A model generated the notes under the pieces. That model was not told the DNA's origin. It ran no database searches and worked only from the letters and a program-made list of their open reading frames with translations. A DNA stretch of 35,559 nucleotides from an uncultured Psychrobacter sp. (GTDB taxonomy: Bacteria; Pseudomonadota; Gammaproteobacteria; Pseudomonadales; Moraxellaceae), in assembly GCA_913061175.1 (NCBI GenBank), contig CAJXUF010000005.1:1-35559 (forward strand), written 5' to 3'. Shown here piece by piece: positions 31,481-35,559 of this stretch. Each line of letters begins with the position of its first letter. Within the stretch, counting starts at the first letter, position 1. Both the position numbers and the translations under genes were made by a program.

Positions 31481-31909
31481 ATGAATCTATCCGATAATAA
31501 AATTAATTTTTCTGATTTACTTTCTCCTACTGAAGCAAGTTCGTTGCTACAACAACTTATCCAATTAGGGAGTCATACTAAAAATGTTCCTAATAATAGA
31601 CTGTGCCTCGATAAAGATGAGTATTTAAACGAATGCAGAAGTCAGTGGCAAAAGTTGTCTACTACTCAGCTTGACAATACTTACTCAGCAGAATTGATAA
31701 TTGATAGCGAACGACTAGCTACCGATTGGCTCATACAGTTATTTAATACTTTATTCGCTGATCAGCAAGTTATATTGGTTCGTAGCAATGATGAACCCGA
31801 ATATTTTCCAGCTAAAAATAATGAACCCGCTCGAATTGAATTCGCTCATGGCTTTTTTGCCAGTGCTTTACATGAAATTCACACATCTCCTTATAGGTTG
31901 ACATGCTAG
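31481..31909 (+). pseudogene. epmC: Truncated EF-P hydroxylase (EpmC/YfcM)
   Basis: LIQLFNTLFADQQVILVRSNDEPEYFPAKNNEPARIEFAHGFFASALHEI matches EpmC up to the HEISHW motif, then an unrelated 10-codon tail and stop; the C-terminal half is missing. Confidence 0.75.
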
Positions 31910-32660: not shown

Positions 32661-32909
32661 CTAATTATCTTCGAGCGCTATCTTAGTATAGTGAGCATGT
32701 AGCAAAGCTTTTACTTCCTTGCTAGTTGCAATTTTACCTTCCTCAAAGTCTTGAAAGATGTGCTGAGTATCTGGGTTAATAGGAATATTATCGACTGCGA
32801 AGCTGCCCAAAGTATCAAAGTTAATGCGGCGGCGCTTTTCTATTTCTTGTTTGCTAACGAGGATAGGACGATCATCGGTAATCGATGCTTCAAATTTAGA
32901 ATCTTCCAT
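32661..32909 (-). CDS. VbhA/FicA-like antitoxin-domain protein (orphan)
   Basis: 82 aa; VSKQEIEKRRRINFDTLGSFAVDNIPINPDTQHIFQDFEEGKIATSKEVKALLHAHY resembles VbhA-type sequences (S-x3-E-G motif followed by ...P-x-x...G-x-I-T/S-x-x-E); here S-FAV-D-N. Confidence 0.6.
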   Translation of the reverse strand: MEDSKFEASITDDRPILVSKQEIEKRRRINFDTLGSFAVDNIPINPDTQHIFQDFEEGKIATSKEVKALLHAHYTKIALEDN

Positions 32910-33037
32910 ACTAGCTCCTATCAGTAGTAATAAAATTGTTCAGCAAGTCAGATAGTCTTCTATCTAGACAATCTTTCTCTCATTGCTATGTCTTATTCGG
33001 CTGATTTAATTGTATTAGTGATTTAGACATCGGTAAA

Positions 33038-34330
33038 TCATGATTGTTTAATATCAAGAGCTATTGTGACTGAATAATTCGTACTTCTAGCATCTCCTAG
33101 AGTTGCGTAACTTACTTGCTCTAAAGTTTTTTGGGACCTATATGGGCTGAATAGCTCATCAAGAGTATGGTGAAAACCACCATCATCTACTGCAAATACA
33201 TAATCAAAAAATATTTTGGCCATTGCAGACTGAGGGTGGCTAGCATCGCGAAAAGATTTATTGTGACTCCAACTACCACTGTATATTTTATTGAATACTC
33301 TCTCTATATTACCAGAAACAGAATTTGAAGCATGTTTTCGAGTAATACCTGGTTTTTGCACGTATGCAGCAGCATTTTCCACAGACTTCCAAATGATATA
33401 ATGCATGGTTGATACAGAGCATTCAGCTAAACATGATCTGAGAATACTAATTAGCTTTTCGCCAATAGGCGGTGCTAGATAGTTCAATCTTGACCTAGTA
33501 ATCAGGTAGCTTAAACACTCTCCTAGCTGTAACTTTTCACACCAGTTCTTAAATTGATCATTCGCTACTAGAGCACTGGTATTTTTCTGAGATTTAGCGT
33601 TTATCAAGATTTTAGTAAGATTCTCAATACTATAAGCAAACTCAAAGATCGCTTGATAGAAATCTATCTCTAGCTCTTTTTCTTCGTTGATAGTTACGTA
33701 TTCGTAGCTATTTTCAGAAGCGAGTATGAGCAGATTTCGGTTAAAAAGATGCTGTAGTATCTCTTCATCTAATTTAGAGAACGGTGATAAAGGTAATGAT
33801 AAATTGTCACGTAGAGAGACTGTATTCCTTATATTATCTGCCCCTAGGCTCTCTACAGTCGCTGCGAGTAGAAGTTTATCCACATCGTTAAGCTCAGTGA
33901 CTGAAGGAATACTGCTTAATTGAATGCTTCGGCATTGATTGATGTACTCTAGAGCGGTCTGTCTCTTTTCTTCTGCTAAACGGTCTTGTTTAAGACGATA
34001 CTCTAAGTACTCTTGATCCATTCTTTTTTCAAGCGCCGCCCTGCAATCATCACACCGCCATCTAATAAGATCCAATCGAGTTAGCTGTGAGCGAGTATAG
34101 CAAATCTTAGTTGTACCGCAGTCTATGCATTGGCAGTCTAGTACGACAAGATGAGCATTTATTTTAACGATACTAGGTATATCCTGATGCTTAACATCAA
34201 ACTCTTGACCTATTTCTTTACAGGTATATATAAAACCACTTCGTTTATCGCCTTCTCTTAACCAGTACCTCTCACAGATCAGCTTATTAGTTTCTGTTAT
34301 ATCTGGCTGATACTCTAGTTTTGTTTTCAT
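33038..34330 (-). CDS. Hypothetical protein, about 430 aa, with N-terminal Cys-cluster (zinc-ribbon-like)
   Basis: Long ORF with ATG at 34330 preceded by GAGG; CQCIDCG...RWRCDDC; no family recognised for the remainder. Confidence 0.75.
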   Translation of the reverse strand: MKTKLEYQPDITETNKLICERYWLREGDKRSGFIYTCKEIGQEFDVKHQDIPSIVKINAHLVVLDCQCIDCGTTKICYTRSQLTRLDLIRWRCDDCRAALEKRMDQEYLEYRLKQDRLAEEKRQTALEYINQCRSIQLSSIPSVTELNDVDKLLLAATVESLGADNIRNTVSLRDNLSLPLSPFSKLDEEILQHLFNRNLLILASENSYEYVTINEEKELEIDFYQAIFEFAYSIENLTKILINAKSQKNTSALVANDQFKNWCEKLQLGECLSYLITRSRLNYLAPPIGEKLISILRSCLAECSVSTMHYIIWKSVENAAAYVQKPGITRKHASNSVSGNIERVFNKIYSGSWSHNKSFRDASHPQSAMAKIFFDYVFAVDDGGFHHTLDELFSPYRSQKTLEQVSYATLGDARSTNYSVTIALDIKQS

Positions 34331-34351
34331 ACTCACCTCATAATACCGACT

Positions 34352-34366
34352 ATATCCCGTGGATAT
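34352..34366. promoter_or_regulatory. Perfect 6-3-6 palindrome in divergent promoter region (candidate operator)
   Basis: ATATCC-CGT-GGATAT, 21 bp upstream of the 430-aa ORF start and 48 bp upstream of the XRE regulator start. Confidence 0.5.
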
Positions 34367-34414
34367 TATAGCCCACCACTGTGAGTATTGCTATTTTTAG
34401 CAGTGGTTGGTGAG

Positions 34415-34624
34415 ATGAAGACAGATGAACGCATGATAGCCTTTGGAAAGCGTATCCGTGATGTGCGCAGAAGCAAAGGAATATCTCAAGAAGTGCTGGC
34501 AGAGATGGCAGATATTGATCGAAGTTATATGGGAAATATCGAGCGTGGAGAGAAGAATGTCACTCTCAAAAAGGCCTATGATATTTGCGATGCATTGGAT
34601 ATAGATATTAAGGATCTAGTCTAA
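34415..34624 (+). CDS. XRE-family HTH transcriptional regulator (controller-protein-like)
   Basis: MKTDERMIAFGKRIRDVRRSKGISQEVLAEMADIDRSYMGNIERGEKNVTLKKAYDICDALDIDIKDLV; SD-like GGTGAG before ATG. Confidence 0.88.
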   Translation: MKTDERMIAFGKRIRDVRRSKGISQEVLAEMADIDRSYMGNIERGEKNVTLKKAYDICDALDIDIKDLV

Positions 34625-34661: not shown

Positions 34662-34812
34662 TCAGTCTAGAATAAAAGAGATACAACCCATATCATGAAA
34701 CAGCTTAGGTAGATTATTCTCCATCCAGCCTTGACGTAGAAATTTTGCCTGTGCCCACTTCTTTTCAATGGGATTTAGATCAGGGCTGTAGGGTGGCAAC
34801 CAAAGAATACGA
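34662..34812 (-). pseudogene. IS630-family transposase C-terminal remnant
   Basis: Reverse strand RILWLPPYSPDLNPIEKKWAQAKFLRQGWMENNLPKLFHDMGCISFILD*; characteristic PPYSPDLNPIE motif. Confidence 0.85.
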
Positions 34813-34882
34813 GAGACCATCCCAGATTCTGTGTAACTGACGTTTAGATTAAATACTTACACAAAATTTAGGAAGGTCTCTG
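34813..34882. mobile_element. 70-bp residual element with IS256-type terminal inverted repeats
   Basis: AGAGACCATCCCAGATTCTGTGTAA at left and, on the opposite strand, AGAGACCTTCCTAAATTTTGTGTAA at right (21/25 identical), with 20 bp between. Confidence 0.65.
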
Positions 34883-35018
34883 AAAATTAACCACCTGACA
34901 CAACTCGTCACCTACTAACAGATCTTGGCGGTCATAAAAGTTGCCCCAACGCTTATAATTATTATCCGTTCTCGACTCAGGGTTATAAGGAATGGCAATG
35001 TAGGTTTGAATTTTATTA
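34874..35018 (-). pseudogene. Fragment resembling C-terminal region of a type II restriction endonuclease (TdeIII-like)
   Basis: Reverse strand NKIQTYIAIPYNPESRTDNNYKRWGNFYDRQDLLVGDELCQVVNFQRPS*; family assignment from memory of the YNP...Y...D...vLiGeefw pattern. Confidence 0.4.
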
Positions 35019-35045
35019 GTGTCCTAAATTAGTTGACCACTACAA
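35019..35045. mobile_element. Putative IS3-type insertion sequence terminus (solo end)
   Basis: Reverse strand TGTAGTGGTCAACTAATTTAGGACACT, TG-starting terminus typical of IS3-family ends; no transposase adjacent. Confidence 0.4.
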
Positions 35046-35233: not shown

Positions 35234-35559
35234 ATGCGTGCTTTAACTTACCACGGTGCTAAAGATGTGCGAGTGGACAATGTCCCAGAACCTAAACTGC
35301 AAGAAAAAGATGATGTTATTTTACGTGTGACTGCAACTGCAATTTGTGGCTCAGATTTACACTTATATCGTGGCAAAATGCCTGCAACCGAGGAAGGCGA
35401 TATCTTCGGTCATGAGTTTATGGGTGTGGTTGAAGAAGTAGGCTCTGAAGTCACTGCTGTTAAAAAAGGCGATAGAGTTGTTATTCCTTTTGTTATTGCA
35501 TGTGGTAACTGCTTTTTCTGTCAGCATGACCTAATGTCCGCTTGTGAGACTACAAATAC
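35234..35559 (+). CDS. Zinc-dependent alcohol/formaldehyde dehydrogenase (MDR family), N-terminal part
   Basis: [70 protein letters not shown]...CGNCFFCQ; runs off the window end. Confidence 0.9.

Follow-up and report, generated by a model that had tools for sequence, protein, structure and literature searches.

Results

Genes and features of the locus

The window, the whole stretch of DNA that was analysed, comprises 35,559 nucleotides from an uncultured Psychrobacter sp. An XRE gene on the plus strand (34415..34624) encodes a 69-amino acid protein resembling the controllers of restriction-modification (R-M) systems; a longer frame with a TTG start runs from 34388. Divergent from it, on the minus strand, a gene at 33038..34330 encodes a 430-amino acid protein belonging to a family without earlier description. 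Its ATG start is at 34330, with an alternative GTG at 34336. The cysteines of a zinc ribbon, C68-x2-C71 and C93-x2-C96, are encoded at 34043..34129 of the minus strand. A gene for an 82-amino acid VbhA-like protein (32661..32909, minus strand) lies 128 bp downstream of the 430-aa gene. An earlier sequence-only reading had given coordinates for the three genes and the cysteines, all of which hold. The XRE and 430-aa genes are separated by a divergent regulatory gap (34331..34414), which is conserved and only adjoins XRE genes.

The locus is bordered by a truncated epmC gene (31481..31909, plus strand), which covers positions 1-49 of 162 of PF04315. On the other side are a fragment of a DDE_3 (IS630-type) transposase (34662..34820, minus strand; PF13358, 3.3e-7) and a relic of a TdeIII-type restriction endonuclease (about 34871..35023, minus strand; PF09520, 6.4e-5, below the cut-off). 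The truncated epmC and the transposase and endonuclease debris reported earlier were thus recovered by Pfam, the endonuclease with a match below the cut-off. In near-identical loci epmC is cut at the same length as in the window (31481-31909), as if its 3′ end had been removed once by insertion and the product then inherited or spread by recombination. An alcohol dehydrogenase gene at the right end of the window (35234-35557) also follows a VbhA-like gene in another genome, one that lacks the pair (G058; L178:6656-7795), which suggests a variable site common to both.

Those close relatives of the locus that bear a name belong to Psychrobacter. Of 105 genomes of the genus, 30 encode all or part of the 430-aa protein, and dN/dS between close copies is 0.10-0.35. 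The three genes are therefore not chance ORFs.

The XRE protein is related to C proteins

The XRE protein consists of an HTH domain only and has the size of a C protein. It matched HTH_3 (7e-13) and the PADLOC 'control protein' models (4e-18). In the PDB, only C.AhdI (3.5e-15) and C.BclI (1.2e-12) scored below 1e-6, so the nearest characterised relatives of this short HTH protein are C proteins. Its controller-like character, proposed from the sequence alone, was borne out by these relatives.

Orthologues of the XRE protein at ≥62% identity numbered 31 in the 105 genomes of the genus; below these, identity fell to about 50%, a clear drop. In 30/31 cases the gene adjoins a 430-aa gene or a piece of one at a contig edge, and the divergent arrangement with an unrecognised 430-aa protein that had been noticed in the window is thus a coupling found across these orthologues. 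The exception (G024) retains the XRE gene and the operator without the 430-aa gene, and adjoins a type I R-M-like gene (HsdR, recognised by eye). The same pair is present on four Psychrobacter plasmids. Among full-length 430-aa copies with >35% identity, one (L059) lacks the XRE gene. The XRE protein as a C-type controller resembling those of type II R-M systems, and the pair as a constant unit, are both well supported by these comparisons.

A conserved gap with a C-box-like operator

In most diverged copies the 78-bp gap is 87-92% identical to that of the window. This conservation is maintained while the nucleotide identity of the 430-aa gene drops to 54% and dS of the XRE gene reaches about 0.7-3 (saturated). 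Only in the two most diverged copies does the gap fall further, to 71% (L060) and 69% (L064). Recent gene transfer alone was rejected as the cause of gap conservation because the synonymous sites of XRE are saturated.

Boxes of the C.PvuII type are built of GACT-tat-AGTC repeats, and their spacer has GT at its centre (PMC4824078). The Esp1396I sites are GTGACTTATAGTC and GATTATAGTC, and the -35 of the C/R genes includes the right TATA (PMC3758141). The window operator compared with these boxes, GACTATATCCCGTGGATATTATAGCC (34348..34373, plus strand), lies in the XRE gene's own promoter region and is C-box-like but an imperfect palindrome of the GACT-tat-AGTC type, since its halves are imperfect and its centre is one base off the published spacing. 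Exact half-sites, GATTATAGTC or GACTATAGTC, occur in three homologues (L222, L224 and L060). The L060 gap holds GACTATAGTCCGTAG, including one perfect GACTATAGTC half-site.

The box extends beyond the genus. CCGTGG was found 38-72 bp ahead of the start in five distant XRE homologues, two of which have it as GATTATAGTCCGTGG. These homologues are carried by plasmids of Moraxella, Enterobacter, Caballeronia, Acinetobacter and Paraburkholderia, and in the sequences compared their divergent partners show no relation to the 430-aa protein. The joint chance of the C-box core ahead of all five, estimated with shuffled gaps, is 8e-11, a value that is too small because the Caballeronia and Paraburkholderia homologues are related. 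On the Enterobacter plasmid (L222) the C-protein-like XRE is divergent from an unnamed 189-aa protein that looks like a coiled coil, and a helicase and TIR/CBASS genes adjoin. On the Acinetobacter plasmid (L224) the partner is an unnamed 162-aa protein, also of coiled-coil appearance, and type I R-M genes adjoin.

A 20-base core of the operator, allowing ≤2 mismatches, occurs at 31 places in 24 of the 105 genomes, every one of them at an XRE gene or an XRE relic. No regulon beyond the locus was found in the 105 genomes. The XRE protein therefore looks like a strictly local controller.

The gap contains a second dyad, ACCACTG-N19-CAGTGGT (34375..34407). Among the genome matches listed, exact copies of it occur only in these gaps. 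Because it is kept with the 430-aa partner and missing ahead of the five distant XREs, we regard the dyad as a candidate site for the 430-aa protein.

Two promoters were predicted by reading the gap. The 430-aa promoter (34365..34393, minus strand) would have its -10, TATAAT, at 34370-34365 and a weak -35, TAGCAA, at 34393-34388. The XRE promoter (34369..34397, plus strand) would have its -35, TAGCCC, at 34369-34374 and its -10, TATTTT, at 34392-34397. A generic promoter scan listed neither. As read, the two promoters overlap, the 430-aa -10 lies inside the right half-site of the C-box, and the XRE -35 overlaps the same half.

The 430-aa protein

The dN/dS values between close copies indicate purifying selection on a functional 430-aa protein. 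None of the four ribbon cysteines varies across an alignment of 30 sequences from the wider family. A confident AlphaFold2 model of the protein had a pLDDT of 88.6 and a pTM of 0.70, with a disordered tail (401-430). From the model and the secondary structure of the alignment, we infer a layout of an HTH-like N-terminus, the zinc ribbon, a 45-residue helix, a winged-helix-like middle and a helical C-terminal domain; these labels have no fold matches behind them. No credible match to the family was found in Pfam, NCBIfam, PADLOC, PHROG or PDB sequences, and a whole-model Foldseek search gave no credible fold match in the PDB or among viral models. Matches to DUF1033, DUF7838 and Condensin2nSMC were single and weak and were rejected as chance. 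A phage origin was unsupported, with no relative in viral contigs or phage records. The protein has no toxin or nuclease signature and no Fic domain. The HTH-like start, zinc ribbon and winged-helix-like middle make a nucleic-acid-binding protein the most likely assignment, and we judge this likelier than a toxin.

Remote relatives share about 10-27% identity and the same four cysteines, and are encoded by solitary genes. Their hosts are Acinetobacter, other Moraxellaceae, another gammaproteobacterial family, and Bacillota plasmids. Solitary members in housekeeping surroundings were seen in Acinetobacter (thiM and a pepN-like gene) and in Psychrobacter (L066/L067). A related unnamed zinc-ribbon protein of 385-430 aa (L108-L127, from Acinetobacter and other Moraxellaceae) is encoded by a solitary gene in many Acinetobacter species, commonly between thiM and a pepN-like aminopeptidase gene. 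Several Psychrobacter also contain stand-alone frames of 106-155 aa corresponding to the N-terminal HTH/zinc part (L117:7807-8175, L118:7680-8147, L119:857-1321, L178:3341-3661), and in L117-L119 such a frame adjoins a 414-aa gene.

With its solitary remote relatives, the wider family does not qualify as a defence family; it is the subfamily coupled to XRE that recurs among defence genes. The basic activity of the 430-aa protein may be unrelated to defence. Homologues standing alone in housekeeping contexts had been named beforehand as an argument against a defence-type module. Some remote relatives are of this kind; in Psychrobacter, 30/31 XRE orthologues adjoin a 430-aa gene.

Neighbourhoods of the pair

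Genes beside the pair were identified by PADLOC, Pfam or record annotation. They include Gabija (L044), SIR2-HerA (L051, with the same clusters in L055), a type IIG R-M system (L052, with the same clusters in L053 and a broken one in L061), DRT2 (L049, with the same cluster in L050), and type III and type II methyltransferases (L063, L064). OLD/AriA-like (L046), Ppl-like (L062) and caspase-like (L045) genes and a TniQ transposition gene (L060) were also found, as was a Wadjet/Mks-like four-gene set (L051-L053, L055, L056, L058). Plasmid copies adjoin a type I R-M system (L031), a reverse transcriptase (L033) or LlaMI R-M genes (L034). The ends of the GajB and HerA genes lie no more than about 50 bp from the XRE stop codon. 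In the contexts examined, no constant methyltransferase or endonuclease adjoins the pair, and here there is only the TdeIII relic. The Wadjet/Mks-like set (L052:10838-17554) encodes a DUF3584 protein of 1296 aa, an MksE-like protein of 206 aa, an unassigned protein of 435 aa and a DUF2399/Toprim protein of 303 aa; PADLOC recognises only JetD, weakly.

Recurrence of the pair near defence genes, which the sequence-only reading anticipated, was therefore seen in many neighbourhoods, and the association between pair and defence is suggestive. The defence-type neighbourhood claimed for the window itself gave way to core genes and relics. Its lineage has the epmC site, relics and, in sister loci, core genes, with no intact defence system. 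Several copies of the pair, including that of the window, lie among core genes.

Recombination between the halves of the pair

The histories of the two genes are discordant. The window and L043 have 430-aa genes that are 97% identical and a common flank on the epmC side, and their XREs are 83% identical. In L052 and L061 the XRE-side cassette is common (type IIG R-M; XRE 88%), but identity between the 430-aa genes is 62%. For L062 and L052 identity is 91% in XRE, 96% in the gap and 63% in the 430-aa C-terminal half. By these comparisons, recombination at the gap has joined XRE and 430-aa genes of different lineages. Among unrelated sites similarity extends about as far as the two stop codons of the pair, and a search for mobile-element ends found no flank common to unrelated sites. 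Given the discordant histories and the ends of similarity at the stop codons, the pair, and above all its gap, can serve as homology for the exchange of either side. That exchange is the selected role of the gap is speculation.

The VbhA-like gene

A family profile of the 82-aa protein gave five matches in the PDB, all of them chains of Fic antitoxins, with a weak best E of 0.0058. Calling the protein VbhA-like was therefore fair. It aligns over the inhibitory helix, as do the VbhA/BiaA antitoxins of Fic toxins, which are also small proteins, and its scores are weak; against PF18495 it fell below the cut-off. The AF2 model is poor (pLDDT 52). Unlike VbhA/BiaA, which have the inhibitory motif [S/T]xxxE[G/N], the 82-aa protein has SxxxDN, its family having SFAVDN, SHAVDN or SIGVGD at this place, and no Fic gene adjoins it. 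None of the VbhA-like copies inspected has an adjacent fic gene, and the one Fic gene found in this genome is unlinked. A RhuM-like/Fic gene of this genome is flanked by hsdM-like and hsdS-like genes in a type I R-M locus on contig C9 (L190:53-3020). A PADLOC match of the 82-aa protein to REase_II (0.0033) was set aside, as the family profile finds only Fic antitoxins. In sequence the 82-aa protein is a weak but consistent look-alike of Fic antitoxins.

The VbhA-like gene accompanies only those 430-aa genes that are ≥85% identical to that of the window; it is missing from most 430-aa lineages, and copies of it also stand alone next to IS256- or IS3-like genes. Co-occurrence is thus constant between XRE and the 430-aa gene (30/31) and not between the 430-aa and 82-aa genes. 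The three-gene module originally proposed reduces to a pair, and we take the VbhA-like gene to be a passenger or an accessory of a single 430-aa subclade.

Discussion

C proteins are known timers of restriction-modification genes. The XRE of the window resembles C.AhdI, C.BclI and C.Esp1396I in being an HTH-only protein of the ∼70-80-aa class with a GAC/TATA/CCGTG-type operator before its own gene, and as in C-box systems the TATA of the right half overlaps the -35 in the gap. Unlike R-M controllers, the pair has no constant endonuclease or methyltransferase, the partner is divergent and from an undescribed family, and the halves of the C-box are imperfect. RptR, a repressor of type I R-M systems in defence islands, is likewise a small repressor conserved together with its site across defence neighbourhoods, but it binds TAGCTA repeats, heads an operon and is not an XRE/C protein (PMC12255303). 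The same gene pair is present as ORF32-ORF33 of pP62BP1, with 36% and 80% identity to the genes of the window, on a plasmid with LlaMI-type R-M genes. The 2012 annotation lists ORF32 as hypothetical and ORF33 as XRE, possibly involved in replication control; the accessible part of that description does not mention the pairing, the operator or their recurrence (PMC3346939). A description of the XRE/430-aa pair as a unit was not found in the literature searched, mostly papers outside subscription journals. The pair is best classed as a new variation on C-protein circuitry with a new partner family.

Sequence comparison establishes the pair, its operator and the conservation and local nature of that operator, the neighbourhoods, and recombination between the two halves. 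Our preferred reading, held with moderate confidence, is a divergent switch of two genes that acts locally, with the C-type XRE shutting the gene of a probable nucleic-acid-binding protein. We infer XRE binding, the direction and timing of regulation and the function of the 430-aa protein as follows. The XRE protein would bind the C-box-like operator between the genes. The XRE promoter, with its -35 overlapping the right half-site, would be helped by the bound protein at low levels; on accumulation the protein would block the 430-aa promoter, whose TATAAT is inside that half-site. Self-control by XRE with repression of the 430-aa gene is the simplest prediction from the promoter anatomy. C proteins time some methyltransferase genes in this way, by self-control and repression. 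Entry of the DNA into a naive cell, or loss of XRE, would turn on the 430-aa gene, which would then be shut, with the timing of a C-repressed methyltransferase gene. Its product would probably serve establishment, or the control of neighbouring genes, rather than act as a toxin.

Instead, the 430-aa protein could act by itself in phage defence, as an effector or sensor that the C-type XRE holds at a low level until XRE is lost or is overcome in the course of infection. The pair does recur among defence genes, the 430-aa protein evolves faster than its controller, as an arms race would give, and a tight repressor would fit a costly product. Against this, the protein has no catalytic signature or fold match, dN/dS shows no positive selection, its remote relatives are solitary in housekeeping surroundings, and several copies, that of the window included, lie among core genes. 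We regard this explanation as possible but unlikely. It is improbable that the locus is a degenerate R-M system, with XRE as a C protein left behind and a 430-aa gene that simply came to lie under its promoter. A pairing kept in 30/31 cases at very different sites, an operator under selection and purifying selection on the 430-aa gene all argue otherwise, even though XRE is homologous to C proteins, R-M genes are near many copies, a TdeIII relic is present here and XRE persists without the 430-aa gene in one genome.

A toxin-antitoxin system, in which XRE or the VbhA-like protein would counter a toxic 430-aa protein, would account for a small and a large gene paired on plasmids and islands and for the resemblance of the 82-aa protein to Fic antitoxins. 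That architecture, favoured by the sequence-only reading, is not indicated by an XRE that is an HTH-only relative of C proteins or by a 430-aa protein devoid of a Fic domain or a toxin or nuclease signature. The 82-aa gene is also absent from most copies and occurs elsewhere without the 430-aa gene, and we consider the explanation very doubtful. Most improbable is a role in replication or maintenance, proposed for ORF33 of pP62BP1 on the grounds that it precedes the origin (PMC3346939). The pair adjoins the replication region on that plasmid, but most copies are chromosomal and far from plasmid origins.

The divergent switch may be taken one step further, as a tentative and rather unlikely extension. 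The pair could be a portable establishment switch and at the same time a seam at which defence cassettes recombine. Over one conserved gap a C protein would oppose a new zinc-ribbon DNA-binding partner, the former at the C-box-like site and the latter at the second dyad, giving a pulse of the partner on entry, and the gap would provide homology for exchanging XRE-side and 430-side cassettes.

Circuitry like that of C proteins is here freed from R-M, tied to an undescribed protein family and found near defence systems of many unrelated kinds. A switch that worked as its anatomy suggests would show how incoming cassettes can be timed in the absence of R-M genes. The gap would also provide a concrete, testable route for the exchange of parts between defence islands by homologous recombination.
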